Source: Thermoanaerobacter pseudethanolicus ATCC 33223
Lineage (GTDB): Bacteria > Bacillota > Thermoanaerobacteria > Thermoanaerobacterales > Thermoanaerobacteraceae
Assembly: GCF_000019085.1 (NCBI RefSeq)
Contig: NC_010321.1
Coordinates: forward strand, 2,270,001 to 2,334,000
Direction of reading: 5' to 3'
Length of the DNA: 64,000 nucleotides
The notes below the pieces were generated by a model that was given only the letters and a program-made list of their open reading frames with translations, was not told the origin of the DNA and ran no database searches. Below are positions 11,714 through 36,169 of the stretch, in pieces. How positions within the stretch are numbered: the first letter of the stretch is position 1; each line of letters opens with the position of its first letter. Position numbers and translations under genes: made by a program.

Positions 11714-11730
11714 AAGTAACCTCTCCAATT

Positions 11731-15900: not shown

Positions 15901-16296
15901 TTAAAAATTTACAAAAAAACTTATTATTGTTCCAGCAACAACGGCAGGCATAAAAGGTATCTTTGCTTTGAATTTACGAAGAGCAAGGGAGTACAGGAGA
16001 AAAATTAAAGAAGAAAATAAAAGGATATCCCATATCTTAAAACCTGCATAGAAAGCCAGAGCAGTCAAAATTTTTACGTCCCCTCCGCCTATTCCTCCTA
16101 AAAGCCAGAAAAGAAAAAGAACAATGAATATTAAAAGAGAATTAAGCAGCATAAAATTTAGATTTATATAAGGATTTAATAATACATTTATAAAAGAAAG
16201 AATTAAGATGGAGGCAGGGTAGATGTATCCTACCTCCATCTTTTTTATGTCTTCTACAGCTGCAAAAAATAGAATTAGTAAGATTAGTATTTTCAT
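15901..16296 (-). CDS. Prepilin peptidase, TadV/CpaA type (A24)
   Basis: A 131-residue membrane aspartyl peptidase with the two catalytic aspartates of A24B proteases: AAVEDIKKMEVG near residue 16 and the GGGDVK box near residue 73. It has about four to five membrane helices and lacks the methylase domain of PilD, as TadV does. It should cleave the leader of the Flp-like pilin and pseudopilins encoded at 22829-23854. It overlaps the upstream 1,089-residue gene by 4 nt, so the two share an operon, separated from the other pilus genes by the toxin-antitoxin locus. Confidence 0.9.
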   Translation of the reverse strand: MKILILLILFFAAVEDIKKMEVGYIYPASILILSFINVLLNPYINLNFMLLNSLLIFIVLFLFWLLGGIGGGDVKILTALAFYAGFKIWDILLFSSLIFLLYSLALRKFKAKIPFMPAVVAGTIISFFVNF

Positions 16297-19562: not shown

Positions 19563-19653
19563 AGAAAAATCACCTCCAAAAAAATAATAAAAAAAGAGAT
19601 GCGGATAACATCTCTTTCTGTTATTCTATATTAAGTTTTACCTTATTTATTAT

Positions 19654-20319: not shown

Positions 20320-20398
20320 GGAATCATCTCCTTTCCGTTAATATAATTATAACATAAATTAGAAAAATATATGGAAAATTATATCAACTTCATTCTAT

Positions 20399-20980: not shown

Positions 20981-20993
20981 ACTTTCCACCTCC

Positions 20994-21347
20994 TCATTTA
21001 TATGGATAAATTAACGGATATTCTGCTATATGGAAAGAAAGACACACCAAACATTCTTTTTCTCCCCTTTGTTCAATTTTAAGTTTTATGTAAAAGTCCG
21101 TTCCTTCAATATCATACCCAAATTCCCATATAGAACCCTGTCTATTACTGCCTACATCTACACTAGGACCTCTATAATAATTTTTGTACGTTAAATCCAT
21201 AATAATCTCTTTAACATGTTTAATTGTTAGGCCAGCTTCTTTAATTGAATCCATATTTTTCTTTCGTGGGACAAAGTCGAAAGTACCTGCTTTCATCAAT
21301 TCTTTAGCATCATTGAGGAATTTTTTAATTTCCTCAATTTGGGCCAT
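20994..21347 (-). CDS. MqsR-like toxin (ribosome-independent mRNA interferase family)
   Basis: A 117-residue protein resembling the Gram-positive branch of the MqsR family (RelE-like fold). Examples are IKKFLNDAKELMKAGTFDFVPRKKN at the N-terminus, LTYKNYYRGPSVDVG in the middle and FYIKLKI followed by LSFHIAEYPL near the end. The ATG at 21347 lies 8 nt after AAAGGAG. It precedes the zinc-finger/HTH antitoxin, the toxin-first order of mqsRA. Toxicity is not shown by sequence. The assignment rests on pattern and gene pairing. Confidence 0.78.
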   Translation of the reverse strand: MAQIEEIKKFLNDAKELMKAGTFDFVPRKKNMDSIKEAGLTIKHVKEIIMDLTYKNYYRGPSVDVGSNRQGSIWEFGYDIEGTDFYIKLKIEQRGEKECLVCLSFHIAEYPLIYPYK

Positions 21348-21370
21348 AGTATATACTCCTTTCATTTAAT

Positions 21371-21399
21371 ATTTTATCATATCTTAAATAATTTTACAA
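21371..21399 (-). promoter_or_regulatory. Promoter of the mqsRA-like pair
   Basis: On the minus strand there is TTGTAA, a 17-nt spacer and TAAAAT, about 24 nt upstream of the toxin gene start. Confidence 0.5.
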
Positions 21400-21432
21400 T
21401 CATTTGATAGTATTTTTTATAAAATTCTCTAA

Positions 21433-21627
21433 TTATTTTTCATCTCCAAACCAGTAGTCCACTTTATCTTTTTTAAAGTCGTAAAAAAACAGCATACTTT
21501 TGCCCTCTCTATCCTTCACAAAAACACCTCCCGGCATAAAATTACAGTCTTCTAAAGTAAACTCATCAATCTCCAAATGTTCCCTCAAAAACTCCATAAC
21601 TTTGTCTCTCATCTCTTTCATGCTCAC
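21433..21627 (-). CDS. Small hypothetical protein
   Basis: A 64-residue acidic protein starting at GTG, 7 nt after GGAGGTG, so translation is well supported. It has an N-terminal helix (MKEMRDKVMEFLREHLEI) and a strand-rich rest (GGVFVKDREGKSMLFFYDFKKDKVDYWFG). I do not recognise the family. The gene lies 30 nt beyond a long inverted-repeat structure at 21658-21818 on the same strand, which could be its leader. Function unknown. Confidence 0.65.
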   Translation of the reverse strand: MSMKEMRDKVMEFLREHLEIDEFTLEDCNFMPGGVFVKDREGKSMLFFYDFKKDKVDYWFGDEK

Positions 21628-21657
21628 TTACAAGCACCTCCCTAAAAATTCAAAATC

Positions 21658-21818
21658 AAATTTGCCTCCCGGCAGTAAACAGGAAAAACAGCCTGCGAAT
21701 TGGAGGTCAAGGTGGAGTCGAGGGATACCGGACCGAGTGCAGCGAGGGAGGATATGCTCGAAGGCACCTTAACCGGAAACAGAGCAGGCGTATAATCTTA
21801 AAAGCGGGAGGCAAATTT
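21658..21818. ncRNA. Candidate structured RNA or miniature element with four nested stems
   Basis: Four pairings nest in order. AAATTTGCCTCCCG (21658) pairs with CGGGAGGCAAATTT (21805). GCCTGC (21691) pairs with GCAGGC (21784). GGTCAAGGTG (21705) pairs with CACCTTAACC (21765) with one mismatch. TCGAG (21718) pairs with CTCGA (21757). The stretch is much GC-richer than its surroundings and has no credible ORF. It could be a non-coding RNA on either strand, a leader of the small gene at 21433, or a 161-bp MITE whose terminal repeats form the outer stem. Confidence 0.5.
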
Positions 21819-21850
21819 TAAATATACTTACAAGAAAAGACCCGAAAATA

Positions 21851-21896
21851 TAAAAAAAGCACGACCGCTGCGGCGTATGCCGTCTGCGGTGGTGCT
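21851..21896 (-). terminator. Strong terminator at the end of the T4SS-Tad operon
   Basis: On the minus strand a GC-rich hairpin with outer arms AGCAC and GTGCT and inner arms around GCGG/CCGC is followed by TTTTTTTATATTTT. A second hairpin (arms near 21904-21914 and 21935-21945, CGGATTTTT type) precedes it. It lies 115 nt after the stop of the last operon gene. Confidence 0.85.
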
Positions 21897-22010
21897 CTAT
21901 TAATTCGGATTTTTGTTTTGAGCAAAGCGAAAATGAAAAATCCGGACCGCTAAGGAAGATAAGAAAAAATAGTCCGAACAAAAAATAAGCAATTTTTTTC
22001 TTGCATTTTA

Positions 22011-22829
22011 CTACAATAATATAAAATCATATACTCTGTCTATCTCTTTTTTAATATTATCAATAATTTCATATTTTAAATTAAGCATTTTTGCATACTT
22101 TCCAAACCCTTTTTCAGGCTTTATAAAAAGTGTTAGATACTCATAAGGAAACTCCTTCATCCTTGCCAATTCTCCTTTTGTACCTTGAGATAATACAATT
22201 ATTTTTGAAGCATTATCAAGCGCAGCCTTAACAATTTCGTTAAATTCATCCGGGAGGTCAAAAATTATCACATCAAACTTACTTCTTGCAAATTTCACAA
22301 TTGTATCAATATCATTTCCGCTAATATCTTTTACAAGACTCACTTTAGGAGGGGACTGAAGTATAAATACATTTGGACTATACTCAATTAAATTTTCAAA
22401 AAAACTCTCTTTTATTCTTTCTCTAAGCCACATTCCGATATGAGGAAGTACAGGAAGGTCCAAAGCAAAACTTAAATCAGAACCTCCATCCTGAAAATTC
22501 AAATCTACTATAAGGACTTTTACATCTTTATTGAAGTTTTCAAAAAGTGTTTTCACAAGCGTAGTTTTCCCTACCCCACCTTTGAAAGAATAAACAGCAA
22601 TAACTTCCTGCTTTGTAGTTATAAAATTTTTACTTTTATACTCTTCTATATCTTTTACTTCTATATTGTTAAATTTCTTACCTAACATATTACTTACAAT
22701 AAAATCATATCTATTTTTTCTAACAATAATTTCTGCGCTCTCTGTAGAGAAAACTACATCAGCATCTACATAATTTTTTTTTGCTCTTTTAATATATTCC
22801 CTATCATTTGATATAATTAATACCTTCAT
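22011..22829 (-). CDS. TadZ/CpaE-like ParA-family ATPase
   Basis: A 272-residue protein with a short receiver-like N-terminal domain (about 1-60) and a MinD/ParA-type ATPase domain. The ATPase domain has the deviant Walker A YSFKGGVGKTTLVK (about 83-96) and VIIFDLPDEF in the Walker B position. This is the organisation of TadZ/CpaE, which positions the Tad pilus at the cell envelope. The second of two adjacent ATGs (22829) has better spacing from GAGGG. It overlaps the stop of the pseudopilin gene and is the last gene of the operon. Confidence 0.82.
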   Translation of the reverse strand: MKVLIISNDREYIKRAKKNYVDADVVFSTESAEIIVRKNRYDFIVSNMLGKKFNNIEVKDIEEYKSKNFITTKQEVIAVYSFKGGVGKTTLVKTLFENFNKDVKVLIVDLNFQDGGSDLSFALDLPVLPHIGMWLRERIKESFFENLIEYSPNVFILQSPPKVSLVKDISGNDIDTIVKFARSKFDVIIFDLPDEFNEIVKAALDNASKIIVLSQGTKGELARMKEFPYEYLTLFIKPEKGFGKYAKMLNLKYEIIDNIKKEIDRVYDFILL

Positions 22830-23236
22830 CATATATCCCTCACTTTAGCCATTCCTGTTATAACAAAATCAGTTGTGGTTTTGTAATAGCTTCCATCGAC
22901 AACAATAGTTACATAAACGTAATTGTTTTTTATTTCTACAATTATATTTTTTGTAGGTATATTTAAGTTTTTAAATGTATCTTCTGCGTATTTATTAGCT
23001 TTTGTAATATCAATAACTACTTCTCCTTTTTCTGCACTATTTATATCAAGGGCATTTAAAGAGATATTGTAGGCTATTTCATCACATACCTTGACAAGGT
23101 ATTCCCTTGCACTTATACCATTTGTGACATAGTAGACTACCTGCATAAAAAGAAGTGATAAAAAGACTAAGAAAATTAAAAAAAGAAGGACAGCATCTCC
23201 TCTTTTGTCCTGAAAAAATCTTTTTAGAATACTCAC
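22829..23236 (-). CDS. TadE/TadG-like pseudopilin
   Basis: A 135-residue protein with a short basic leader (MSILKRFFQDKRG), one hydrophobic helix (about 15-38) and an extracytoplasmic domain rich in beta strands. A glycine right before the hydrophobic segment fits a prepilin peptidase cleavage site. It starts at GTG, 7 nt after AGGTG, and overlaps its neighbours on both sides by 4 nt or less. In Tad systems such minor pilins prime assembly of the Flp pilus. I cannot tell TadE from TadG by sequence alone. Confidence 0.75.
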   Translation of the reverse strand: MSILKRFFQDKRGDAVLLFLIFLVFLSLLFMQVVYYVTNGISAREYLVKVCDEIAYNISLNALDINSAEKGEVVIDITKANKYAEDTFKNLNIPTKNIIVEIKNNYVYVTIVVDGSYYKTTTDFVITGMAKVRDI

Positions 23237-23616
23237 GGCGTATCACCTATCCTTAAAGAGCTTCTTCCCACAAGAGTCTTCTGCTGCCCTCCTAAAAGGT
23301 AAAAAGTATATCTAACTTCTACTGTGAGCATGTCATTTTTTAGTGATGTACTAACAGCAAGCCTGTCTCCCATTTTCCATCCAGTTATTCCATCCCCAAA
23401 ATTAAGTACAGCCATCTGAGCAGTCTGCTCTGGAGTGTCTGACTTTATTCCTATCCTCGCTCCTTCAAAGGCTGCTTCATTGACCAATGTCTGCATGTTG
23501 CTTACAACAGAAATATTAACTATAGAAGCCATGATAAAAAGGAGGATAGGGAGCAGGGCAGCTGTAGAAATAAGCTGCGAAGCTCCCCTGTTGTCTTTTA
23601 AAAATCTTCTTATCAT
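23233..23616 (-). CDS. TadE-like pseudopilin
   Basis: About 127 residues, starting at the ATG at 23616 (MIRRFLKDNRGASQLISTAA). The NRG/ASQL junction followed by a hydrophobic helix is the typical TadE processing region (RGAxxxEF-like, though here without the Glu). The mature part contains a beta-rich domain with GGQQKTLVGRSS near the end. A longer reading to 23706 would run through the pilin gene next door and lacks a leader-like start. The ribosome binding site is weak, so coupling to the upstream pilin gene is likely. Confidence 0.75.
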   Translation of the reverse strand: MIRRFLKDNRGASQLISTAALLPILLFIMASIVNISVVSNMQTLVNEAAFEGARIGIKSDTPEQTAQMAVLNFGDGITGWKMGDRLAVSTSLKNDMLTVEVRYTFYLLGGQQKTLVGRSSLRIGDTP

Positions 23617-23632
23617 CTTTATCACTTGTTTA

Positions 23633-23854
23633 TCACTTGCCTTGAACGGCATTGGAGAAGAAGCCAGAAGCAGTATTGAGAGCATTTGTAACCATATTTG
23701 AAACATTTGTCCTTATAGTAGGTGATACCACAACAAGTATTCCTACAACTATTGCTATCATCCCTATAACAGACAAAAGATGACTCTCACCCTTTCTGTC
23801 TTTTAAAAATTTTCTCACCATGTTTTGAACTTTCATTAACATATTTCTAATCAT
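23633..23854 (-). CDS. Flp-like major pilin
   Basis: A 73-residue prepilin: a basic leader ending in FLKDRKG, then a hydrophobic stretch (about 26-45, SHLLSVIGMIAIVVGILVVV) and a short polar tail with many Asn/Ser residues. Size and layout match Flp/Fap pilins of Tad systems. AAGGAGGT lies 8 nt before the ATG. It is the smallest gene of the pilus block and is followed by two pseudopilin genes sharing the FLKD-x-x-G leader motif. It is presumably cleaved by the TadV-like peptidase at 15901. Confidence 0.8.
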   Translation of the reverse strand: MIRNMLMKVQNMVRKFLKDRKGESHLLSVIGMIAIVVGILVVVSPTIRTNVSNMVTNALNTASGFFSNAVQGK

Positions 23855-23910
23855 TAAAATCTACCTCCTTGAAATTTTTGTTATTTTTTAAAACAAATTA
23901 AAAAAGCCTT

Positions 23911-24636
23911 TTAAGACAGAACAAAAGGCAGTGCAAAGATTATTAAAATTGGGATAAAGTACCCTAAGAAAATAGGGAAGAATAAGCTGTTGTCAAGCAC
24001 AGATGCACTTTCCGTCTTTTTATTGTAATTTATTTCTCTTACTTCATCTAAAAGTTCTTCTAAATTTTCTTTAATATCTTGTTCAGATGCAAATTCTCCT
24101 GTAATAATTTTTACAAATCTTTTAAAGTGGTCATTTAAACTTTTAGAAGCTGCATAAGTGAGTGCATCTTTTAAAGAGCTTCCTGTGTCGAGCCTTACCT
24201 GTGCCTCATGTAATAAATCTCTTACCACCCCCTCTCTAGTTCTAACAATGTAGCTGATAATATTTTCTTTATTCATTCCCACCTCCAAACCATTTATAAA
24301 GATTTCTATAGCAGCAGGGAGCTCTTCTTCTTTATAGAAGCTCTCCCTGTAGCTGTCTATTGGTTTTTTCCAGTATTGATAGAACATAATAATTGAACCT
24401 GTAACTACAGATAAAAGAGCAAAAATATTTGCCCCGTTTACTGTTCCTACTACTGACAAAACTATAAGGCCTCCCAAAATTAGAACTCCAAAAGAAAAAA
24501 GCTCAAGTACATCATGAGCTTTAAAAAAAAATATTTTCACTCCTCCGACTGCTTTAATTTCCTTATCCCACTTTTCTATCATGTCCTGTCTTATTCCAAG
24601 TTTTTGAAGGTGTTTTTCTGAAACAATCTTTCTCAT
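23911..24636 (-). CDS. TadC-like type II/IV pilus membrane protein
   Basis: A 241-residue T2SSF-domain protein. Two hydrophobic segments near 48-85, a cytoplasmic helical domain (about 105-205) with GSSLKDALTYAASKS and a final membrane helix form the platform topology. It overlaps TadB by 4 nt. TadB and TadC together form the inner-membrane platform of the Tad machine on which the TadA ATPase acts. Sequence similarity outside the fold is low, so the TadC label rests mainly on its place after TadB. Confidence 0.82.
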   Translation of the reverse strand: MRKIVSEKHLQKLGIRQDMIEKWDKEIKAVGGVKIFFFKAHDVLELFSFGVLILGGLIVLSVVGTVNGANIFALLSVVTGSIIMFYQYWKKPIDSYRESFYKEEELPAAIEIFINGLEVGMNKENIISYIVRTREGVVRDLLHEAQVRLDTGSSLKDALTYAASKSLNDHFKRFVKIITGEFASEQDIKENLEELLDEVREINYNKKTESASVLDNSLFFPIFLGYFIPILIIFALPFVLS

Positions 24637-25538
24637 AGTTCCATCTCCCTGTCTATTCTTTTTAGAATATAAAGTGTTGATATAAAGTAGCTCAAAGCAG
24701 CATAAGCAATTACTAATTTCCCTATAGGAGAAGAAAAAGTCCTGATAAAATCAGGGCTAACTGACACTGTTGAAACAATCATAAAAGCCATAATGCCTAC
24801 CAGAGAAACCATTAAAGATTTTGCCTGCACAGTCATGGCAGCAATTCTGTTTGACATTTTTATTCTCTCATAAAGTTTTTTAGCTGTCCTCTCACACACT
24901 CTCGATAAATCAGATTTCATCCTCACTGCAAAAATAATGCTGTCAATCCATACTTTTATATATGTGCTTTCTATATTTTTAAATTCTTTTAATGCTTCTT
25001 CTAAATCTTCTCCTAACTGAAATCTCCTTAGAACTCTGTCTGTGTGCTCTTTTAAAGGATTTTCAGCTTCCTCAGCTGCCTTTATAAAAGCTCCAGCAAA
25101 GCTTGGTACCATTTTAAGATATGCTCCTAGCATTTTAACAAAATCTCTAAACTGCTCTTCAGTTTTTCTTATTTTTCTTCTCCCTAAATAGTCTAAAATA
25201 TAGTCTATAAGATAATAAAGCATAACAGGAAGTGTAAAACCTAATAAAGTAAAACCTTTAAAGCTCAAAAATACAAGTATCACAATAGTAAAAAGTATAA
25301 ACCACAAAAACACTTCCTCTGCATCTACCTTAATACCGCTTTTTTTAAGCTTTTTCTCTAACTTCTCAATAAAGCTTCCTAAACCAAATAAATCCACTAT
25401 ACTAAACTCATTCTTTTGTGATATCACTAAATGCCTCTCCAGCCTTCTTTTAAGTTTGAGCCTTTTATTTTCCCTAATACTGTACAAAAGAACTACCACC
25501 ATAAAAACAGCTGCGCCGAATAAAAAAGAGACTGCCAC
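24633..25538 (-). CDS. TadB-like type II/IV pilus membrane protein
   Basis: About 301 residues with the T2SSF fold: N-terminal membrane helix, cytoplasmic linker, two central helices (about 80-125), the conserved cytoplasmic FVKMLGAYLKMVPSFAGAFIKAAE region and two C-terminal helices. I prefer the GTG at 25538, 6 nt after AGGTG, over one three codons upstream. It overlaps or abuts TadA/CpaF and TadC with no spacer. With TadC it forms the membrane platform of the pilus. Confidence 0.85.
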   Translation of the reverse strand: MAVSFLFGAAVFMVVVLLYSIRENKRLKLKRRLERHLVISQKNEFSIVDLFGLGSFIEKLEKKLKKSGIKVDAEEVFLWFILFTIVILVFLSFKGFTLLGFTLPVMLYYLIDYILDYLGRRKIRKTEEQFRDFVKMLGAYLKMVPSFAGAFIKAAEEAENPLKEHTDRVLRRFQLGEDLEEALKEFKNIESTYIKVWIDSIIFAVRMKSDLSRVCERTAKKLYERIKMSNRIAAMTVQAKSLMVSLVGIMAFMIVSTVSVSPDFIRTFSSPIGKLVIAYAALSYFISTLYILKRIDREMEL

Positions 25539-25539
25539 A

Positions 25540-26697
25540 TTAATCACCTACCACATGCTTTAAAATGTAGTCTCCGTTTTCATCTATGCCCTCAATTTCA
25601 ATAACTTCAGCAAGCTCTCTGCCTTTTAAATTTCCTTTTTCATCCTCCGTAAGCCTCAAAAACACGACAATGTCGACTGCTCTTGAGATGAGCTTTCTTA
25701 TGATTCTGTAGTCAAGGTTTTTAAACTCCTGAATTAGCATTTCAAGCCTTAACAAAGCATCTAAGCAGGAATTTGCATGTATTGTTGTCATAGAGCCTCT
25801 GTGGCCTGAATTTAAAACGTGGATAAGCTCATAGGCGCTTTCAGGTGTTCTTATCTCAGTGAGAATTATTCTATCAGGGTCTGCTCTCAAGCAGTCGTTG
25901 AGTATGTCAGAGTAAGTTACGCTTCTTGCTTCAGCCGTTCCTTTTCTCGTTTTGAAGTAGTAGACATAGGGTATATGAAGTTTAATCTCTCTTGTATCCT
26001 CTAAAACTGCTACTACATGCTTTTCCTGAATCTCAAAGCCTAAAGAGTTGATAAAAGTCGTCTTTCCAGCGCCTGTTTCTCCTGCAACTATGATGTTTTT
26101 TCTGTCTTTTACCGCCTTTTTGAAGTACTCCTGCATTTCTTTCGTAAGACCTATTGTAGTTTTTACTAGTTCTTTTAAAGGTACATTTAAGAGATTGTGC
26201 TTTCTGATAATTATGACAGGCTTATCAGACTCTGGAGGTATAACTAAAAGAGCACGAGAGCCGTCATAAAGCTCTGCATCCTGTGAAGGATTTGCTATGT
26301 TGATTGATTTATTTAAAGGTGCAAGGATTCTGTCCTGTATAACCCTCACAGCCTGTTCGTTTGGAAACTCTTCTTCTGCGTCTATTTTTACTCCTGCTTT
26401 CTTGTACATTATTTTTGTGCCGTTCACATGTATGTCTGTAACTTCCGGGTCCTTAAGGTACTTCTCTATAATTCCCAATCCGTAAAGAGAAGAGTAGAGC
26501 ATTTCCGTGTATTCTATAAGTCTATCTAGTGCAAAAGGATATTTCTTTTTGAGATACTCTTTCACTTCTTCTCTCAGTATATCCTTGATGTTGGGCTTTC
26601 CGTGGTGCTTCATCATAATTTCCCTTATCTCATCTGTCATTTTCTCAACATCCACTGCTCCATCATTAATTCTTCTGCTTAACTCTCTTAAAGCCAT
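25540..26697 (-). CDS. cpaF: TadA/CpaF secretion ATPase (VirB11 superfamily)
   Basis: A 385-residue hexameric ATPase. It has an N-terminal domain with VTDIHVNGTKIMYKKAG, Walker A IIVAGETGAGKTTFINSL (about 203-220), an Asp box with VLEDTREIKL, Walker B region RADPDRIILTEIRTPE and the His box HRGSMTTIHANS. GGAGGAGG lies 7 nt before the ATG. It powers pilin assembly. As the only VirB11-superfamily member in the operon it might also serve the T4SS half. It overlaps the upstream ParA-like gene by 32 nt. Confidence 0.92.
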   Translation of the reverse strand: MALRELSRRINDGAVDVEKMTDEIREIMMKHHGKPNIKDILREEVKEYLKKKYPFALDRLIEYTEMLYSSLYGLGIIEKYLKDPEVTDIHVNGTKIMYKKAGVKIDAEEEFPNEQAVRVIQDRILAPLNKSINIANPSQDAELYDGSRALLVIPPESDKPVIIIRKHNLLNVPLKELVKTTIGLTKEMQEYFKKAVKDRKNIIVAGETGAGKTTFINSLGFEIQEKHVVAVLEDTREIKLHIPYVYYFKTRKGTAEARSVTYSDILNDCLRADPDRIILTEIRTPESAYELIHVLNSGHRGSMTTIHANSCLDALLRLEMLIQEFKNLDYRIIRKLISRAVDIVVFLRLTEDEKGNLKGRELAEVIEIEGIDENGDYILKHVVGD

Positions 26698-27382
26698 TCA
26701 CAAGCCTCCTCCACAAGGATTTTTCTTTTTTTACTCCAAAAAGAGCATCTTTTAAGTTTCTGGCATGCTTCAGCATTTTCTTATCTTTGTACTCATTTAA
26801 TTTTCGAAGATAGGGGATGTGGTAAATAACCGGTATCCCTAGGTCTACAGCAGTGATGTACTTCTTTTTCCCTCTCACTTTATTAACTACTGCACAGGTC
26901 CTGCCTGCATCTAAAAATCCATGCAGTCTTAAATACTCAAACATTCCAACTGTTCTTGAGACTGCGGATATATCATCTTCCATTACAAACAAAACTTTGT
27001 CAGCTTTTAAAAGTGCTGCGACAGTAACCTCAGAAATCTGAGGCTGTAAGTCTATCAGCACATAATCATATTCATTTGAAAGACTTTTAATAAGCTTTTC
27101 CATATCCGCATACTTTAAGTTTTCCTGCATGTCTGGAAAGCCGCCGACTATGACGTCAAATTTTTCTCCCTGAGGCCTCTGAAGGCAGGCTCTGTAGTCT
27201 CCTAAACATGCATTGACTATGTTTTTCTCTTTATCTAAATCAAGTAAAGACACAAAATCACCGGGAGAAAAATCACATTCTAAAACACATACTTTATTTG
27301 TTTCGCTTAAAGCTTTTGCAAGAGCTAACGCAAGTGTAGTCTTTCCCACACCGCCTTTGGGGCTGAATACTGTAATTACCAT
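26666..27382 (-). CDS. TadZ-like ParA/MinD ATPase without receiver domain
   Basis: About 238 residues, MVITVFSPKGGVGKTTLALALAKAL at the N-terminus with a deviant Walker A motif. It also has DYVLIDLQPQISEVTVAALLKAD, the Walker B region of Fe-NIF/ParA ATPases. The start is the ATG at 27382, 8 nt after AAGAAGG. Upstream in-frame ATG/GTG codons sit inside that ribosome binding site. It lacks the receiver domain of full-length TadZ, but a stand-alone receiver-like protein is encoded two genes upstream. It probably localises the pilus machine. Confidence 0.82.
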   Translation of the reverse strand: MVITVFSPKGGVGKTTLALALAKALSETNKVCVLECDFSPGDFVSLLDLDKEKNIVNACLGDYRACLQRPQGEKFDVIVGGFPDMQENLKYADMEKLIKSLSNEYDYVLIDLQPQISEVTVAALLKADKVLFVMEDDISAVSRTVGMFEYLRLHGFLDAGRTCAVVNKVRGKKKYITAVDLGIPVIYHIPYLRKLNEYKDKKMLKHARNLKDALFGVKKEKSLWRRLVNGFKRVKQKN

Positions 27383-27387
27383 TCTCA

Positions 27388-27933
27388 TCACCTTCTTACT
27401 ACTTTGAATGAATTAAGCTTCAAATACGGCACAAGCTCAGCAGCAGAGTTTAAATCTGCATTGAGAATTAAGCTTGCTTTATCAGAGTCTTCCTTCACAA
27501 CTGAGATTACCTTAAAGCCATCAAGAACTTTAGAGCCTGTCTGGTCAAAGACTATAAAGCTTACTGTATCTCCTGACTGAAGTGTCTTTGCTTCTACAGA
27601 AGTTACAGAAACTGTCATTACAGCATGGTCAGGGCCCAAGGGTTGAGAATCTTTTGAAGTTAAAATTTCAACTGGAATGAAGTCTCCTCTTACTCTTCCT
27701 TCCTTCACAACTTTCCCTACAACATTGGATAGGCTTCTGGCATAGTTAGGTTTAACTGCTGAAGCAGGTACATCAACAACCTTTACTGCATCCTCTGAGA
27801 TAACAGTGCCTGCAGGTATGTCTTTTTCCACAATGACCACTTTTTCTGTCTTCTGGATGTTCTGCATAAACACAAGCATAAAAGCTGCAGAAACAGCAGC
27901 TGTTATTAAGGCAATTTTAATAATCTTGCTCAT
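27388..27933 (-). CDS. cpaB: CpaB/RcpC-like pilus assembly protein (SAF domain)
   Basis: A 181-residue protein with one N-terminal membrane helix (about 5-24) and an external SAF domain. The domain starts VVIVEKDIPAGTVISEDAVKVVDVPASAVKP and is followed by the RcpC-like C-terminal region with VSFIVFDQTGSKVLDG. Such proteins are found in nearly all Tad loci and may interact with the wall or with glycans. AAAGGAGGT lies upstream of the ATG. Its stop overlaps the following ParA-like gene. Confidence 0.88.
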   Translation of the reverse strand: MSKIIKIALITAAVSAAFMLVFMQNIQKTEKVVIVEKDIPAGTVISEDAVKVVDVPASAVKPNYARSLSNVVGKVVKEGRVRGDFIPVEILTSKDSQPLGPDHAVMTVSVTSVEAKTLQSGDTVSFIVFDQTGSKVLDGFKVISVVKEDSDKASLILNADLNSAAELVPYLKLNSFKVVRR

Positions 27934-28450
27934 AAAGGACCTCCTTTACTAGAAGTTTTTCAATCTCTAAAAGGCCTTCATTTAAATCGGTACACCGGTA
28001 GCTTTCGCCTAAAAATTTAATTATGCCCTCTATCTGCTTTTTTGCGGTTTCTATACTTTTTGCAAAGCTTTCAATTTTCAGTTCACTGATAGTTAAATCC
28101 GTCAGCAGATAGCTTACATCTCCAAAGTTTCTGGGCTTTTCAAGGACCTCTTTTACTTTCTCAGCTGTTACAGGCTCAAATACTAAGTCATATATTCCCA
28201 TTATGAAAAGTTTGGCTGTGAGGTCTTTATTAATGCTTTCTCCTGCAAGGAAAATAACCCTCCTTCCTCTTTTTCTCACCTCAAAAAGCAGATTTTCTGC
28301 TGGTAAGCTGCCTGTAAGAGCCTCGGAAAAAATCAGGGTGTCAAAATTAAAATTAAAAACAGCTTCCCTGTAGTACACCGCTGCAGTATTAGGAAGTACA
28401 TCAGAAAGCTTTTTGTCCAGCGCTTCGATTCCGGTTGCAAGAAGTATCAC
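27917..28450 (-). CDS. Receiver-like pilus protein (split TadZ N-terminal domain?)
   Basis: About 177 residues. The first 100 look like an atypical response-regulator fold: alternating strands and helices with FDTLIFSEAL, RRVIFLAGESIN and the terminal FMGIYDLVFEPVTAEKVKEVLEKP. The phosphorylation Asp pocket is not convincing. A helical tail follows. The GTG at 28450 is 8 nt from AAGGAGG and is favoured over ATGs at 28456 or 28468. I read it as the partner domain of the receiver-less TadZ at 26666, an inference from fold pattern and gene order. Confidence 0.6.
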   Translation of the reverse strand: MILLATGIEALDKKLSDVLPNTAAVYYREAVFNFNFDTLIFSEALTGSLPAENLLFEVRKRGRRVIFLAGESINKDLTAKLFIMGIYDLVFEPVTAEKVKEVLEKPRNFGDVSYLLTDLTISELKIESFAKSIETAKKQIEGIIKFLGESYRCTDLNEGLLEIEKLLVKEVLYEQDY

Positions 28451-28464: not shown

Positions 28465-29529
28465 TCATCCATCGTCTTCTCTTTTCATTGACCGCTCCAG
28501 CAGTTTTTTCTCCAGTTCTTCTACGTCATATTTTCTCTGTGAGTAGCTGTTAAAGTAGTTTTTAGGTACAGAAAAGGTACTGCTGTCTCTATCTGCCTTT
28601 TTTACAGCATCTATTACCGATTTTTCTTTGATATAGTTTTCAATTGTTTTCTCTAAAAAATTAACAGGGCTTCGTATGTTCCGCCCTTTCATTTTCCTTA
28701 AACAGACTTTTATATCTTCATCTGTTAGCATGTACTTTTCTTTAAGTTCCTTTATAACCTCACTGTCAAAATCATCTGACTGATTGACTGACCGATTTAA
28801 AGTCTGTCCGTCAGTCAGTCCATCCTGCTCCATCTCCATATTTTTTGACTGACTGACTGATGTAATCTTATGATGTAATCTACTGATGTAATCTATTGAT
28901 ATAGGGAGGTCGGGATTTACCATCTCGGGAGATGGACTTTCCCTATCTCCAGAGATAGACTTTCCCCATCTCGGGAGATTGGGATTTCCCATCTCTGGAG
29001 ATTGACCACCCTCCTTTTTCACTAAAATATCAGTATACACAGCCTTTTCATTTTTTATCTCCGGCTTTATAAACTGAGGTTCTCCTTCTACTTCTTTGTG
29101 AGTGAGTTCGTCCAGCAGTCTATCCACCACCTCATTGTTTCTTACATAGTAGGTTACATTTTTCTGCTTGTCTATAAAGCTGCAGTACAGCTTTTCTTCT
29201 CCGTTTTTGATGAAAAGCCTTCCCTCCTCCTGGGCTTTTAAAAACTCTGTCTTTGAATTGTACCTTACACCAATCTTATCAAAAGCAGTTCTAAACTCCT
29301 CAACAGAAAATCCCAGCTCTTCTACCCAGCTATCGCCGGGAGCATAAGAAGGATGGTCTGGTGCTGGCTCAAGAAATTTATAAAAGCTGTTGTAGTTATA
29401 CCTGTCAAACCAGTACTCCAGCTGCTCAAATAAAATTGCGGCTGTTACAGAACCCGTTATTTTTCTGTATTCCGGATGATAAGGAATTATCCTGCTCGCT
29501 AAAGCAGCAGCTCTATTTCTCCTCTCCAT
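28465..29529 (-). CDS. Replication-initiator-like protein
   Basis: A 354-residue protein starting MERRNRAAALASRIIPYHPEYRKITGSVTAAILFEQLEYWF. That opening is typical of phage and plasmid replication proteins with an N-terminal winged-helix module. The middle (about 170-260) is low-complexity and encoded by the repeat array at 28777-29013. The C-terminal third (LKEKYMLTDEDIKVCLRKMKGR, then NFLEKTIENYI) is helical, like DnaD-type initiators. GAGGTG lies 6 nt before the ATG. Its position between T4SS and Tad genes in one operon is odd. Function is inferred from pattern only. Confidence 0.65.
   Translation of the reverse strand: MERRNRAAALASRIIPYHPEYRKITGSVTAAILFEQLEYWFDRYNYNSFYKFLEPAPDHPSYAPGDSWVEELGFSVEEFRTAFDKIGVRYNSKTEFLKAQEEGRLFIKNGEEKLYCSFIDKQKNVTYYVRNNEVVDRLLDELTHKEVEGEPQFIKPEIKNEKAVYTDILVKKEGGQSPEMGNPNLPRWGKSISGDRESPSPEMVNPDLPISIDYISRLHHKITSVSQSKNMEMEQDGLTDGQTLNRSVNQSDDFDSEVIKELKEKYMLTDEDIKVCLRKMKGRNIRSPVNFLEKTIENYIKEKSVIDAVKKADRDSSTFSVPKNYFNSYSQRKYDVEELEKKLLERSMKREDDG
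28777..29013. repeat. Iteron-like repeat array inside the initiator gene
   Basis: Three arrays lie side by side. Four 12-bp palindromes ATCTCnnGAGAT start at 28922, 28945, 28968 and 28991, exactly 23 bp apart. Three copies of GATGTAATCT start at 28859, 28872 and 28885, exactly 13 bp apart. GACTGA-type repeats at 28778-28860 include an imperfect 15-bp inverted repeat (28778-28792 with 28806-28820). Neither 23 nor 13 is a multiple of three, so DNA rather than protein periodicity is conserved. The layout resembles an origin embedded in its initiator gene. Confidence 0.8.
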
Positions 29530-29539
29530 AAAAAACACC

Positions 29540-31165
29540 TCACGGGTAATTATTTTTATACTTTTCTCCAATAGCCATTACCTGGTCTACATACCACCAT
29601 GCGTGATTGTAGTGCCATACCGCATATCTTAAAGCCTCATCTTCATTAAACCCTTTCCTTAAATAAACATCTCTATTTGCCGCTAAATATCTCGCAGCAG
29701 TGAAAACTGCATCTTCGGGCTCAAAAGGACTTTTTGTTCCATTGTTGTTGCCGTCTACAGCATACTCGTCAAATGTACTTTGCAGGAACTGCATCATACC
29801 CACAGCCCTTGTTTTCAGCTCAGGCAAATATGGACCTATTGCGTTTGGATTAAAACTTGATTCTCTAAAAGCTATTGCTGCAAGCACATACCACGGAATA
29901 CCGTATTCTCTTCCTGCTTCTTTAAACACAGGGAGCAAATTTTCCGGTATTCTGCCGGGTTTTGCCGCATATTCTTTGCTCGCACCAATGCCCAGCAGCC
30001 ACTCCAAGTTTTGATCACCTTTCATAAAAGCAATTCCCGTCTCCAGAATAAACTTTCTGTCAATACTGTCATTTACTGCAACACTCCCTGCCGGCACATT
30101 TATATCTCCTAAAGGATTTACAGGAGTTCCGCTTACTCTCACCTCAAAGTGAAGGTGAGACCCTGTAGCAATACCTGTGCTTCCTGCCAGTGCTATCTTC
30201 TGTCCCTTCTTTACAACATCTCCAACCTTAACAAGCACCTGTGAGTTGTGTGCATACAAGGTTGAAATGCCTCCGCTGTGGTCTATCACCACTGTATTCC
30301 CATACCCTCCATAAGGCCCTGATGTTGTCACGACACCGTCAGCTGCTGCAACTATTTCATCTCTTGTGTTTGCCGCTATGTCTATTCCCGTGTGCATTTT
30401 GTATGTTCCTGTCACTGGATGAAACCTCATGCCAAAAGGCGATGTTACTGTATGACTTGAAGGAACAGGCCACAAAAGCTTTCCTCCAGAAAGCTCAATG
30501 GTTTTAGTTTCTCGTTTATAACTACTGTAAAAGCTTGTTTTAATTTCTCCTGCTATTACTGCATCCAGTTTAGAATAGTCCTCATAAAACTCCATCCCTT
30601 TTAAAGCCATATATGTGCGTGATTCATTTCCTTTTACATCGGTCACTTCTTGATACTCAAACACATAAATCCCTTCATAAGTTCTTACCTGAGTAAGCAG
30701 TTTAACAGGCACATAAGCAACTTCCTCCTTAGCAGTCACATTTCCCTCAGCATTAACTTCAAATCTAACTGTTACAATCTTCTCCGTATAGTCCATATAC
30801 TCAAACTCCGGCTTAAGCCCTTCAGCTATTCTTCTGACTCTTGTCATATCAACATCTTTGCTCCAGCCGTTTGCATACTCCTCAACTGCATAAACTATAC
30901 CCCACGGCAGCTGAAAATTTTCTTCCTGCCTGTACTTTGATATTACTTCCGGCTTAATGCTTTCCACATACTTCTTCACCTTTTCTTTTCCTTCAGCCAT
31001 CTGTTTAGGAGCTGCACCAAAAATTGAAAGAAGTATAAGTATTACCAGACCCATTATTATCAAGTAGGGCAAAAAAGTGAGGAGCACAGGTTTTACAGCT
31101 TTCCACAGGTATCTTGATATTATGTTTTTAACTCTGTTTTTAAGAATCATAACCTGGTTATCCAT
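29540..31165 (-). CDS. VirB1-like peptidoglycan hydrolase (M23 peptidase plus lytic transglycosylase)
   Basis: A protein of about 541 residues with one membrane helix (about 22-48) and a predicted external part. An M23 endopeptidase domain (about 240-355) shows HTGIDIAA, the central zinc site and GSHLHFEVR. A C-terminal SLT/lytic transglycosylase domain (about 400-535) shows IAFRESSFNPNAIGP with the catalytic Glu and GMMQFLQSTFDEY. GGTGAGG lies 6 nt before the ATG at 31165. Bifunctional hydrolases of this type open the wall for Gram-positive conjugation machines. Confidence 0.9.
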   Translation of the reverse strand: MDNQVMILKNRVKNIISRYLWKAVKPVLLTFLPYLIIMGLVILILLSIFGAAPKQMAEGKEKVKKYVESIKPEVISKYRQEENFQLPWGIVYAVEEYANGWSKDVDMTRVRRIAEGLKPEFEYMDYTEKIVTVRFEVNAEGNVTAKEEVAYVPVKLLTQVRTYEGIYVFEYQEVTDVKGNESRTYMALKGMEFYEDYSKLDAVIAGEIKTSFYSSYKRETKTIELSGGKLLWPVPSSHTVTSPFGMRFHPVTGTYKMHTGIDIAANTRDEIVAAADGVVTTSGPYGGYGNTVVIDHSGGISTLYAHNSQVLVKVGDVVKKGQKIALAGSTGIATGSHLHFEVRVSGTPVNPLGDINVPAGSVAVNDSIDRKFILETGIAFMKGDQNLEWLLGIGASKEYAAKPGRIPENLLPVFKEAGREYGIPWYVLAAIAFRESSFNPNAIGPYLPELKTRAVGMMQFLQSTFDEYAVDGNNNGTKSPFEPEDAVFTAARYLAANRDVYLRKGFNEDEALRYAVWHYNHAWWYVDQVMAIGEKYKNNYP

Positions 31166-31637: not shown

Positions 31638-33176
31638 CTAGTTTCTCCACCTGAACATATCAGTATTTGACGTCAGGACAGTCGGAGCAATGAAGGAGGC
31701 CATATGAAATCCATATCTTCCAATTGCTCCTCCTATTTTTTTACCTACCTCACTTCCTTTGTATCCATAGGCAGAGCCCAAAATCATTCCTCCAGCTCTC
31801 CCTACTGCTTCCGCTGCATCCTTCTCATTTAAAATTCTTTCTATTCCAACAGACTGTGAAAGGCCTCCAATAAAGCCAGTACCGGTATCTCTGCCTTTGT
31901 CATATGCCTCTTTTATTAAGGCAACAGCTGTTGCAGCAGGAGCTGCTGTGCTCCTGCCTATTACGCCACCGGCACTCCTGAAGTGCTCTGTCACATCCAC
32001 ACCCATAGTCCTTAAAGGAATAGAAGCTGCAGAGCCTATAAGGCTGCCAACAGCACTTCCTATTGTGCCTGCAACTGATCCTGCTTTAACACCCGCTGAT
32101 ACAGCACCTGTTCCTGCAGGTCCAGATGGAAGGGTCCCCGAAAAAGTGCTTGAAGGAAAAGAAGCTTTTGGAGCTGCTGTAGTCTTTGCAATATTTGCAA
32201 GCCCCAAAAGGCCAGTAAGACCCAAAGTTGCTGCTCCTGCCCACTTCTCTTCATTGACTCCCAAGAATTTGAGCCAGCCCTGAAGCAGGTCTCTAATAAC
32301 ATTTGCAGTAGGTATTAAGCACACCATGCCGAATATCTGCGCCCACCAGGGAGAAAAATCCGTTGAAACCCCAGCCTTTATGAGCACCAGATACAGTGAT
32401 AAAACCAATGAATGGGCTGCCTGCATGAAAGCGTTGGAAGCAGTTTCACCTATTATAACGCCTATTCCTTCTTTTCTTCCTGATATTGTCCAGCTCCATG
32501 CTACAATGGGTGTCAGTATAAACATTGAGGTCAAAACAAATTTTCTTATCAGGTACAGAAAATTAAAATAAAGCAAAATCCCAATGTAGCCCAGCTTGAC
32601 AATTGCTGTAGCAAGCACATTTCCCGTTTTTATATCATTTATATCAAAAGTACTTCCCACTGCTCCCATGCTTTGCGCAATACTGTGAAACAGATCCACA
32701 AGAGCATTGTTCGCCTGAAACATAATCCTCATAAAGTACGGCATAAACAGAATTATGAAAAAGGCATATATCACACTTGAAACACTCTGCATGAAGTTTA
32801 TCCTTTTTGATGGATTGACACTGGATGTCATAAACCTGTATCCCTGTGCCGCTACTGCAATTAAAAGGAGCACCCACACAGCATCTCTTATTCTTCTATA
32901 CCACGTCATCACAATATCCCACTCCTGCGGGCTGTAAGGTGCCAGATCACCGTAGGAGGTGTTGAATATAAGCTCATCAAAGTTTTTAAGCCCTAAAATC
33001 TGAATTGCCGAATAAAGCCCATTGATTGGTGCGGCAATAAGCTCTTCAATAAGACTGCCCTGGTCCTCCTGCGGCTGCGGAGAATTACTTGGGCTTGTAA
33101 CAGAAGGTGTTTCAGCAAAAGCAGTTATACTGAATAAAAGAGCCAAAGCCACAGCAAAAATAATCAGCCTACTCAT
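31638..33176 (-). CDS. TrbL/VirB6-like conjugal transfer membrane protein
   Basis: A protein of about 512 residues with a signal peptide (MSRLIIFAVALALLFSITAFAE). Five to seven membrane helices lie between about 85 and 330 (for example IRDAVWVLLLIAVAAQGY and ILLYFNFLYLIRKFVLTSMFILTP). A long Gly/Ala-rich C-terminal tail follows. This is the layout of TrbL/VirB6 inner-membrane channel proteins of Gram-positive T4SS. The ATG at 33176 overlaps the end of the VirB4 gene by 8 nt and has no strong ribosome binding site, pointing to translational coupling. Confidence 0.82.
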   Translation of the reverse strand: MSRLIIFAVALALLFSITAFAETPSVTSPSNSPQPQEDQGSLIEELIAAPINGLYSAIQILGLKNFDELIFNTSYGDLAPYSPQEWDIVMTWYRRIRDAVWVLLLIAVAAQGYRFMTSSVNPSKRINFMQSVSSVIYAFFIILFMPYFMRIMFQANNALVDLFHSIAQSMGAVGSTFDINDIKTGNVLATAIVKLGYIGILLYFNFLYLIRKFVLTSMFILTPIVAWSWTISGRKEGIGVIIGETASNAFMQAAHSLVLSLYLVLIKAGVSTDFSPWWAQIFGMVCLIPTANVIRDLLQGWLKFLGVNEEKWAGAATLGLTGLLGLANIAKTTAAPKASFPSSTFSGTLPSGPAGTGAVSAGVKAGSVAGTIGSAVGSLIGSAASIPLRTMGVDVTEHFRSAGGVIGRSTAAPAATAVALIKEAYDKGRDTGTGFIGGLSQSVGIERILNEKDAAEAVGRAGGMILGSAYGYKGSEVGKKIGGAIGRYGFHMASFIAPTVLTSNTDMFRWRN

Positions 33177-35004
33177 TCGGATTTGTAGAAATGAGCTTCT
33201 TCTCATAATCACTTGCCACCACCTTAATGGCAGTCTTGTTCCTGCCGACTAAAAATAAAGCCTCACCAACCCCACAGGAGGTTAAAAAATCTCTTTCACC
33301 CTGTGAAAGGTGAAACACCTCCTGAACAGAATCTATATCTGTAGCAGCCTGCTTCATTAAAAACACTGCTGCAGAATTTGTAAGCACTGCTTTTCCTTCC
33401 TGTGAATTTGAAAACTCAATAAAGGACTGACTAGCAACAGTAAGGGAGGTGTTTCTTTTTCTTGCCCTTCTCGATAAATTCTCAAGAAAGTAAGCTGTGT
33501 CTTTGTACTTCATAAACATCCACGCCTCATCCACTACAACCCTCTTTTTCTGCTTAACATCCTTCTTAACGAACTTCTCCCATATCCAGTTTGTTATGAC
33601 ATACATTGCATACGTCCTCAAAAACCTATCCCTTATCTCTGATACATCAAAATTAACTAAGTAAGAGTCTTCTAATGAAACATTTGTCTGTCCGTCAAAT
33701 ATACCTAAAGTACCTCCTTTTAAAAAAGGCTTCATAACTGCAGCAATTCTCTCTCCCCTTGGATTTTTCTTTAGCCTTTCTACAAAGCTTGACAGTGTGG
33801 GCATTTCTTTTTTCTTTTTAAAATAAAACTCTTCACTGTCTGCAATATTCTTCTCATATAAAGACTCCGGGCTTTTGTTTATTCCTCTTGCCTCATACTC
33901 ATCTCTTACCGCTTCTTCCACAGCAGCTAATTCTTCTGCTGAAATTTTGTCCTTCATAACTCCTTCCACTATCATCCCGACCAAAGCTTTTATCTCGGCT
34001 ATTTTCTGAACTATGTCCACATACCTTATTTCATTCTCATCTTCCTCTTCTTCCACATCAAAGGGATTAATTATGTTCTCAGTCTCTGTGCTTATCTTAA
34101 CAACGCTTCCTCCCATCTTCTGAACCATGCGGTTGTACTCGCCGTCGGGGTCCACAAAAACCGTTTTTATGCCCAAAAGCGCTCCCCTCATGGACAAAAG
34201 CTTTATGAGAAACGACTTTCCTGCTCCCGATGTAGCAAATATACCTAAGTTGTAGTTTGTCATAAAAGGTGGACCTATGAAGTTGTCAAAAATTACAGGG
34301 CTTCCGGTAAAAAGATTTATTCCAAGCGGTATGCCTTTCTTGTGCGAAAACTCCGGAGATGCAAAAGGAAAAAGTGATGCAGCAGCACCGCTGTTGAAAT
34401 TTCTTGATAAATCCTCACAGTGATTTTCTAAAATCGGCACAAAGCTTTTAAAAGCTTCGCTCTGCCTCAGAAACATTCTTCTTGCTCTTATGCTTTTACC
34501 TGCTAAAACCTCTTCCAGAATTTTTGAGCTTCTTTCAAGCTCTTCTACTGAGTCTGCAGAAACTGAAACAACCGCTGTAACATAATAAAGCTTATCTCTG
34601 TTCATCTGTATGCTTTCTCTCAGCCTTTCAAGGTCCTCCACCGCCTTTCTCAAAATTCCCAGCTCATATATGTTTCCTCTCTGGTCGTCCAGCATATACT
34701 GCGACTGGTACTGAGTTATCTTCCTTGTAAGCTGATTTACAGCATCTCTTGCATCTACAGGCGTAAGATGGACTGACACATCCACATTGCCAAGAAGCTT
34801 AATATCCTCCAGCCACCCTACGTAAACGGCCTGAGGGAAATCTGTAAGCACATAAAGCCTGTAAAATTTCTTCCCAACCCTTATATAATCTTTCTCTATC
34901 AAGTATCCGTCAGGTGAGATTACTTCCACTACAGTAGGAACCTTTTCAAAAAGCTCCGGCTCTTCTTTAACAGCTTCTTCTTTATTCTTTTTAAGCTTCA
35001 GCAC
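33169..35004 (-). CDS. VirB4-like T4SS ATPase, C-terminal part of a split protein
   Basis: A 611-residue ATPase of the VirB4/TraC family. Walker A is FATSGAGKSFLIKLLSM (about 250-266), Walker B KKRVVVDEAWMFM (about 495-507), and further motifs RKRNTSLTVASQS and TNSAAVFLMKQ follow. It starts at GTG 35004, 9 nt after a GGGGG stretch, and overlaps the upstream gene by 14 nt. The N-terminal VirB4 domain is carried by that gene, so together they make a protein of about 813 residues, the normal VirB4 size. Confidence 0.9.
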   Translation of the reverse strand: MLKLKKNKEEAVKEEPELFEKVPTVVEVISPDGYLIEKDYIRVGKKFYRLYVLTDFPQAVYVGWLEDIKLLGNVDVSVHLTPVDARDAVNQLTRKITQYQSQYMLDDQRGNIYELGILRKAVEDLERLRESIQMNRDKLYYVTAVVSVSADSVEELERSSKILEEVLAGKSIRARRMFLRQSEAFKSFVPILENHCEDLSRNFNSGAAASLFPFASPEFSHKKGIPLGINLFTGSPVIFDNFIGPPFMTNYNLGIFATSGAGKSFLIKLLSMRGALLGIKTVFVDPDGEYNRMVQKMGGSVVKISTETENIINPFDVEEEEDENEIRYVDIVQKIAEIKALVGMIVEGVMKDKISAEELAAVEEAVRDEYEARGINKSPESLYEKNIADSEEFYFKKKKEMPTLSSFVERLKKNPRGERIAAVMKPFLKGGTLGIFDGQTNVSLEDSYLVNFDVSEIRDRFLRTYAMYVITNWIWEKFVKKDVKQKKRVVVDEAWMFMKYKDTAYFLENLSRRARKRNTSLTVASQSFIEFSNSQEGKAVLTNSAAVFLMKQAATDIDSVQEVFHLSQGERDFLTSCGVGEALFLVGRNKTAIKVVASDYEKKLISTNPNE

Positions 35005-35599
35005 CTAGTTTAACCCCCTTTTTATAAAGCTCAAAGGCTCCAGCTTTAATAAGATTGTTCACTCTTATGTTTCCGTCTCTGTTCAGCACAAAAAACATAA
35101 GCTCCAAAAGCTCATCAGTACCCAAAATTCTCGGCATGAGTCCGCATTTGGCAAGCCCCTCTACAATCATGTGGACTCGCCTCATTATTTCACTTCTCGC
35201 CCTGTCATATCCTCCTGCAGTGTCATCATAAGGAACAACCACATAAGACTCTGTCGTAATAGTTTGCTTTGAAAAATATCCAAGAAACTCTTCTAGCTCT
35301 TTTTCATACTCTCTCATTCCTTCAGGAAGAAACTGAAGCCTTTCTCTAAATTCCTCTATTGATTCAGAAACATCTACAGGCTTAACTATTGTGAAAAACT
35401 GAAGCGGAAAAGACAGAGATAAAAGAAGGCTTATAAAAGCTGCCTCAACCGCCCCCTGCTCTTCTTCTGAAAGAAGAGAAAAATTTACAGGGTCGGCTGT
35501 TACAACCGCCCTGTACCTATTACCTTTTAAAATCAAAAGCCCATCTTTTATATCTTCAATGCTTAAAAAATCTATGCTGCTGTTCTTTTTAAAAAGCAC
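34991..35599 (-). CDS. VirB4 N-terminal domain protein (split VirB4)
   Basis: A 202-residue protein that resembles the N-terminal domain of VirB4/TraC-type ATPases: DFLSIEDIKDGLLILKGNRYRAVV at the start, a strand-rich middle and a helical segment with RSEIMRRVHMIVEGLAKCGL. It starts at GTG 35599 behind GGAGGTGG. It ends inside the following ATPase gene in another frame (14-nt overlap). The split could be a fixed two-protein form or an ancestral frameshift. The good ribosome binding site of the second gene favours the former. Confidence 0.75.
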   Translation of the reverse strand: MLFKKNSSIDFLSIEDIKDGLLILKGNRYRAVVTADPVNFSLLSEEEQGAVEAAFISLLLSLSFPLQFFTIVKPVDVSESIEEFRERLQFLPEGMREYEKELEEFLGYFSKQTITTESYVVVPYDDTAGGYDRARSEIMRRVHMIVEGLAKCGLMPRILGTDELLELMFFVLNRDGNIRVNNLIKAGAFELYKKGVKLGAEA

Positions 35600-35892
35600 T
35601 GCTTTCCACCTCCAATAAAAAGGTACTCCTTTGGAGAAACCAAAAACTTTAGGTACATCACAATATACTTATCTATTTCTATCTCGTCCTTTTTAAAAAA
35701 AGCCAGAAATGCTCCTGCAGCCGAAAAAGCTGCCCAAACCACTAAAGCAGTAAACAAATCTTTTGAAAAATATTTTGTAAAGAAAACTGCGCCAATTCCT
35801 ACACCAACAATAACAAATATCATCTGCCTAACAGAAAAATTCCCGCCGAATATCTTTTCTTCTCTTTCTAATTGAATAGGCACTTCAAACAT
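35572..35892 (-). CDS. PrgI/VirB3-like T4SS membrane protein
   Basis: About 106 residues beginning MFEVPIQLEREEKIFGGNFSVRQMIF, the usual opening of PrgI-family proteins. Two hydrophobic helices follow (about 28-44 and 50-68), then FKKDEIEIDKYIVMYLKFLVSPKEY. PrgI proteins take the VirB3 place in Gram-positive T4SS and work next to VirB4, whose first half starts 28 nt before the end of this gene. The ATG at 35892 is chosen over upstream GTG codons because it starts the conserved sequence. Confidence 0.88.
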   Translation of the reverse strand: MFEVPIQLEREEKIFGGNFSVRQMIFVIVGVGIGAVFFTKYFSKDLFTALVVWAAFSAAGAFLAFFKKDEIEIDKYIVMYLKFLVSPKEYLFIGGGKQCFLKRTAA

Positions 35893-35914
35893 TCTCACAC
35901 AAATCACATCCCTA

Positions 35915-36169
35915 TTACGGCTTAAAGCCGAGGATTACACCGGCGAAAAATTTTGCACCAACTACCACTATTCCTCCAAGTATAGACCAGAAAAGTCCCA
36001 TCATAGCTTCTGTTCTTCTTCCGGGGTTGTGGCCTGTAGTATAAAATCTGTACCCGTTTACTGCGATAAAAATCACAGCAACAACAATACCTACATCCAT
36101 CACAAAGTTTGCAATTTTCCACAAAAATGAGGTTATCTGAGCCTCACCAACAGGCGTAATGCCGTTCAT
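35915..36169 (-). CDS. TrbC/VirB2-like pilin or small T4SS membrane protein
   Basis: An 84-residue protein with two hydrophobic helices (about 18-42 and 62-80) joined by a short polar loop (RFYTTGHNPGRRTEA), the VirB2/TrbC pilin topology. There is no obvious cleavable signal peptide. GAGGAGGT precedes the ATG. It directly precedes the PrgI/VirB3-like gene, reproducing the virB2-virB3-virB4 order. It probably forms part of the channel or surface structure. Confidence 0.78.
   Translation of the reverse strand: MNGITPVGEAQITSFLWKIANFVMDVGIVVAVIFIAVNGYRFYTTGHNPGRRTEAMMGLFWSILGGIVVVGAKFFAGVILGFKP

Follow-up and report, generated by a model that had tools for sequence, protein, structure and literature searches.

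A palindromic repeat array inside an initiator-like gene of a Thermoanaerobacter integrated element is probably a replication origin recognized by the gene's own product

In phage lambda, four 19-bp iterons are followed by an A+T-rich part, the initiator O has an N-terminal DNA-binding part and a C-terminal part directed at the helicase, and P serves as the helicase loader; phage SPP1 encodes a loader (gp39) and a helicase (gp40) of its own. The lambda origin lies within the initiator gene O (PMC6022878), where O dimers bind the iterons, which are near-perfect inverted repeats, next to an A+T-rich region that opens (PMC5043065). SPP1 gp38 binds the direct repeats of oriL inside its own gene 38, where they adjoin an A+T-rich unwinding element (PMC6316719). 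The Rep protein of pSK41, a member of the RepA_N family, has a winged-helix N-terminal domain, four binding boxes located centrally within rep (an experimentally defined origin), a dispensable linker and a genus-specific C-terminal domain that acts on host replication proteins and contacts DnaG (PMC5703833). SXT/R391 integrative and conjugative elements (ICEs) and SGI1, which are integrated mobile elements like the one described here, are reported to replicate when extrachromosomal (PMC4489591, PMC7433901).

Here we describe an in-gene repeat array in a 64-kb stretch of the Thermoanaerobacter pseudethanolicus ATCC 33223 chromosome (the window). The gene that contains it, rep, encodes a putative initiator (Rep) of 354 residues and occupies 28465-29529 on the minus strand when read from ATG 29529. 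The mechanically called frame (28465-29571, minus strand) starts at TTG 29571 and contains all of the arrays, and ATG 29529 is the likely start codon because the MERRNR encoded there is conserved in orthologues. A first-pass annotation had reported four palindromes spaced by 23 bp and three repeats spaced by 13 bp, and both proved exact in spacing and in position. The ATCTCnnGAGAT palindromes start at 28922, 28945, 28968 and 28991, with no others in the window, and a pair of them stepped by 23 bp is unique to the rep array in the 2.36-Mb genome (the reversed control pattern gave 0 matches). In gene order, these iterons are ATCTCTGGAGAT (iteron 1, 28991-29002), ATCTCGGGAGAT (iteron 2, 28968-28979), ATCTCCAGAGAT (iteron 3, 28945-28956) and again ATCTCGGGAGAT (iteron 4, 28922-28933). 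They are followed by three 13-bp direct repeats (GATGTAATCT + 3; 28858-28900), a proposed DNA unwinding element in which GATGTAATCT recurs in 13-bp steps at 28859, 28872 and 28885. Tandem Repeats Finder independently recovered both the 23-bp and the 13-bp array. A+T content is 72-75% in the 13-bp array (windows of 40 bp that begin at 28840 and at 28860) compared with ~50% in the adjoining iterons, a richness that is only modest against a region of the 65%-A+T type. The imperfect 15-bp inverted repeat built on GACTGA that had also been reported is present as one of several poorly conserved inverted repeats within 28776-28860, which pair 28776-28792 with 28802-28818 (17 nt, 82%), 28803-28817 with 28846-28860 (the 15-nt repeat, 87%) and 28807-28820 with 28847-28860 (14 nt, 93%); GACTGA itself occurs at 28778, 28786, 28847, 28851 and 28855 and TCAGTC at 28811 and 28815. 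These inverted repeats are the weakest component of the locus, and orthologues with 67-70% identity carry TCAATC repeats instead.

The locus resembles the lambda origin in its in-gene position, in its four proposed iterons followed by a modestly A+T-rich part and in a predicted protein layout with DNA binding at the N-terminus and a helicase-directed C-terminus, and it resembles oriL of SPP1 in having repeats in the putative initiator's own gene beside a candidate unwinding element. It differs from lambda in its iterons (19 bp in lambda, stepped by 23 bp here), in its 13-bp repeats, in its conjugation-type carrier and in its DnaD-like tail; the helicase loader of lambda is P. Loader and helicase genes are encoded by SPP1, whereas the window element has no such genes adjoining rep.

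The palindromes lie in reading frames 2, 1, 0 and 2 and the 13-mers in frames 2, 0 and 1, so that all three frames are used. When synonymous codons drawn from neighboring genes were resampled with the protein sequence held fixed, 100,000 trials yielded at most two palindromes in the region, compared with four in the real gene. Furthermore, when codons for identical residues were compared between rep and its 90%-identical orthologue (L006), we found synonymous changes at 4 of 59 codons in the stretch encoding residues 159-224 and at 54 of 227 codons on its N- and C-terminal sides, so that residues 159-224 have fewer such changes (Fisher p = 0.0017). Because the frames differ, resampling fails to produce the array and synonymous changes are reduced, we conclude that the order of the repeats is kept at the DNA level, and the first-pass annotation was right to propose this. 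Chance and protein-level repeats were each considered as the source of the array and were ruled out by the frame analysis and the synonymous resampling.

The array is conserved together with the Rep family. Four full-length orthologues were found, one from a congeneric relative (90% identity) and three from another genus of the family (67-70%), and in all four the array is present as 3 to 5 copies stepped by 23 or 24 bp. The N-terminal 156 residues occur far more widely than full-length Rep. Relatives that are 40-54% identical in this part are found on plasmids of Methylovorus, Cupriavidus, Ilyobacter and Bealeia, on genome contigs with the labels Acidobacteria, Paraburkholderia, Brasilonema, Gallionella, Desulfuromonadales, Geobacteraceae and Legionellales, and on viral contigs. 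For 25 family genes (not independent, as some are closely related), we scored self-matches at lags of 14 to 40 in the 240 nt that lie 3' of the N-domain and compared them with 300 dinucleotide shuffles. Of the 25, 21 genes from several phyla matched themselves best at a lag of 23 or 24 bp; 19 of these were at the floor of the 300 shuffles, and the remaining two, L049 and L041, reached 0.033 and 0.070. In the same 240-nt test, four genes (L042, L043, L052 and L054) had a best lag other than 23 or 24 bp. Conserved spacing among relatives, on which the first-pass annotation had made its reading depend, was thus borne out. In distant members that hold the array pitch, the N-domain is merely 42-50% identical. 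The iteron sequences themselves differ among the family (ATCTCCnGAGAT, ATCTACnGGAGAT, ATTTACnGTAAAT, ACTTACGTAAGT and others) at constant pitch and position, and the arms of the palindromes are conserved despite the drift of the unit sequence. Additionally, several members, from several phyla, have direct repeats of 12-15 bp (type ACAGA-A-TAC) after the iterons, in the place that the 13-mers take here. In one family member, L060, the array (8471-8574) comes just after the stop codon that ends the initiator frame; either this gene carries a frameshift or its origin is noncoding.

These comparisons bear on whether the repeats have any function as DNA. The linker peptide is poorly conserved in sequence across the Rep family and copy number ranges from 3 to 5 among orthologues, as might be expected if the repeats were a by-product of a repetitive linker under low constraint or of a recent tandem duplication. 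However, the copies occupy different frames and do not arise when the protein is held fixed, the palindrome arms are kept while the unit drifts, the 23/24-bp spacing is held in distant relatives, and the L060 array is outside the frame altogether, which makes a by-product extremely unlikely.

We also compared the protein with known families and folds. The N-terminal domain of Rep (residues 1-158; 29056-29529, minus strand), which defines the cross-phylum family and is proposed to bind the iterons, is predicted to be winged-helix-like by its helix-strand order, and a confident AlphaFold model of it (18 sequences) had a mean pLDDT of 86.6 and a pTM of 0.77. Foldseek found no match to this model in the PDB at E up to 0.001. 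A second structural alignment against the PDB returned DNA-binding winged helices of a generic kind, with Z at most 7.1, and these single out no family for the domain. A viral structure library yielded two significant matches, both to uncharacterized phage proteins; proteins annotated for phage replication matched more weakly. At the sequence level, a profile search of the PDB with Rep gave non-significant matches only, tblastn of a phage collection found nothing, and Rep had no match in NCBIfam or in Pfam (at E up to 0.1). PHROG 9773, described as 'replication initiation O-like', matched residues 11-82 of Rep (E 6.7e-6) and, with E up to 0.01, 7 of a set of 18 family members. Rep differs from lambda O in that this O-like match is not accompanied by a Pfam match to a lambda O family. 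A gene for the replicative helicase DnaB overlaps or directly follows the family member in three phage-type contigs (L058, L061 and L064). With the PHROG 9773 match and these three helicase genes, the similarity to known initiators that the first-pass annotation had expected from profile searches was found.

The C-terminal region of Rep (residues 253-354; 28468-28773, minus strand) recurs in initiator-like genes of Thermoanaerobacteraceae-type relatives whose N-termini are unrelated. Its tail (PKNYFNSYSQRKYDVEELEKKLL; 28483-28593, minus strand) is also common to host DnaD and is a proposed helicase-loading contact; the likeness to DnaD is limited to this tail, and Rep has no match to a DnaD_N or DnaD domain. 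The C-terminus varies between lineages of the family, and that of L063 (7998-9089) resembles DnaA domain I with a score of 24.1 bits, just below the curated cut-off of 24.6. A conserved N-domain for which DNA binding is predicted, an origin-like array in the linker-coding part and an exchangeable C-terminus recall the layout that experiments demonstrated for pSK41 Rep. Rep differs from that protein in its palindromes, in the spread of its family well past Bacillota and in the absence of RepA_N (PF06970) from the Pfam matches of Rep itself and of 18 family members.

The same protein evidence bears on a transcriptional role. If the palindromes were operators and the winged-helix-like protein regulated its own or neighboring transcription instead of initiating replication, an array inside the gene could block or tune transcription, and the structural fold matches are indeed mostly to transcription regulators. 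We nevertheless consider this improbable, since a DnaB helicase gene lies directly downstream in three phage-type contigs, and the O-like PHROG match, the DnaA-domain-I-like C-terminus of one member and the DnaD-like tail of Rep point to replication; moreover, origin function and autoregulation can coexist.

Initiator-like genes with other N-domains carry in-gene arrays as well. L002, in the same genome (G000:C1 ~39.2-40.2 kb), combines an unrelated DnaD_N-type N-domain with a related DnaD-like tail and has five in-gene palindromes of type ACTGAAAAATTTTCAGT spaced by 22, 22, 22 and 23 bp, and L016, which has a third type of N-domain and a related tail, has a palindromic array at 23 bp. No significant array was found in genes that share the C-terminus and have different N-domains (L010, L012, L015, L025, L026, L028, L029 and L033), and the same repeat test detected none in host dnaD genes or in most control genes (TadB reached p = 0.04). 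The two co-resident elements have different initiator types and iterons, which suggests that they are compatible replicons in one chromosome.

Together, these data are best read as a theta origin, with dimer-binding iterons and a 13-mer unwinding element, embedded in its own initiator gene, and we regard this reading as very probable. We consider it equally probable that Rep recognizes the array in its own gene as an origin. The steps from binding through melting and helicase loading to replication are inferred as follows. The conserved winged-helix-like N-domain would bind as dimers, one to each palindrome of the 23-bp-stepped array, and the resulting Rep-iteron complex would open the adjoining A+T-rich 13-mer array. 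The C-terminus, with the tail it has in common with host DnaD, would then recruit the host helicase-loading machinery. In this scheme the linker-coding part of rep carries the origin, and the linker peptide would be tolerated because it merely joins two domains, so that selection would act mainly on the DNA. A broader proposal, which could as easily prove wrong as right, is that the N-domain and the iterons downstream of it form a portable origin cassette of ~0.7 kb, which would have passed across phyla between phages, plasmids and integrated elements. The C-terminus would have been swapped to suit the local helicase-loading route (a DnaD-like tail in Bacillota, a DnaA-domain-I-like part in one phage-type member, a cis-encoded DnaB in others), and the iteron sequence would drift with the N-domain while the 23/24-bp pitch is held.

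The element that carries rep has the features of an ICE, namely an integrase, an att site and type IV secretion genes. The tyrosine integrase lies at 42043-43161 (plus strand) and the 54-bp att site at 43230-43283, at the 3' end of a tRNA-Thr gene (43237-43312, minus strand); in the relatives G005 and G007, tRNA-Thr is present without the integrase-side sequence from ~43230 on. The type IV secretion module (31638-36169, minus strand) comprises VirB6-like, split VirB4, PrgI/VirB3 and VirB2-type pilin genes. The VirB4-like ATPase (33169-35599) is divided into overlapping frames at 34991-35599 and 33169-35004, and this split is not a sequencing error because G010 and the diverged L069 element show it too. 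No relaxase or coupling protein was recognized among the scanned open reading frames of the window. Candidates for these, picked by eye, are located at G000:C1 76461-78729, beyond the proposed inversion considered below, and a Thermoanaerobacterium element that carries a Rep orthologue (L069, 762-3837) has a relaxase-like and a VirD4-like coupling protein, also named by eye. Two further observations concern the rest of the window. A gene for an MqsA-type antitoxin and a small partner (20399-21365) are a likely toxin-antitoxin pair inside the element, and at 8038-14583 two near-identical reverse-transcriptase frames (group II intron-type) flank transposon-type ATPase and integrase-like genes, of which there are further copies at G000:C1 52-55 kb and 91-93 kb.

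Near rep lies a Tad-pilus block (15898-28041, minus strand) that encodes ParA/CpaE-type ATPases at 26666-27391 and 22011-22832. Centromeres are frequently repeat arrays, and the rep array might accordingly be a partition site, with a ParB-like protein bound to it and these nearby ATPases as partners. Both ATPases, however, lie within the Tad-pilus block, and CpaE homologues are usual in such blocks; in several phyla, moreover, elements without this neighborhood carry the array together with the N-domain. We therefore judge a centromere highly unlikely and retain the origin as our reading.

The 12.1-kb Tad-pilus block occurs again, inverted, at G000:C1 59232-71376 (98-99% identity) and is a candidate site of chromosomal inversion. 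No direct repeat of the tRNA-Thr end was found inside the window. Elsewhere in the chromosome, partial copies of 52 bp (G000:C1 80557-80608) and 54 bp (G000:C1 88351-88404) both run opposite to the att site of the window. An element of ~8 kb with tRNA-Thr repeats of 52-57 bp at its flanks (G000:C1:80557-88404; G007:C29:9149-17360) occupies the same site in several relatives and has its own integrase in G000. Judging from the coordinates, the arrangement is most simply explained by recombination of two integrated elements via the Tad block, which would have inverted the part of the chromosome that holds the chromosomal replication origin and separated the two ends of the element. Because the att copies are in opposite orientation, simple excision looks blocked in this chromosome; if the inversion account is correct, their recombination would invert rather than excise. 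Replication of the element after excision, as the first-pass annotation suggested, is plausible: it is a reasonable expectation for intact relatives and doubtful in the present chromosome. Rep relatives sit on circular plasmids, among them the 125-kb pRK1-3, for which the listed stretches of an incomplete gene table show no other annotated initiator.

The in-gene origin is already known as a kind of system. The Rep family, its cross-phylum spread and its place on a conjugation-type integrated element appear undescribed, and a literature search on named plasmids and Thermoanaerobacter ICEs, short of a full survey, found no paper on the family. One uncurated initiator family unites phages, integrated elements and plasmids that lack an annotated initiator (pRK1-3), with putative binding sites that can be read from the gene itself. 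The frame-rotated palindromes illustrate how a coding region can keep an origin while its peptide is free to vary. For the integrated conjugation-type elements of thermophilic Bacillota, the locus provides a probable origin and initiator at the level of sequence, and with them a testable handle on autonomous replication of such elements; a replicon of this kind would allow an integrative conjugation-type element to multiply or persist when extrachromosomal.
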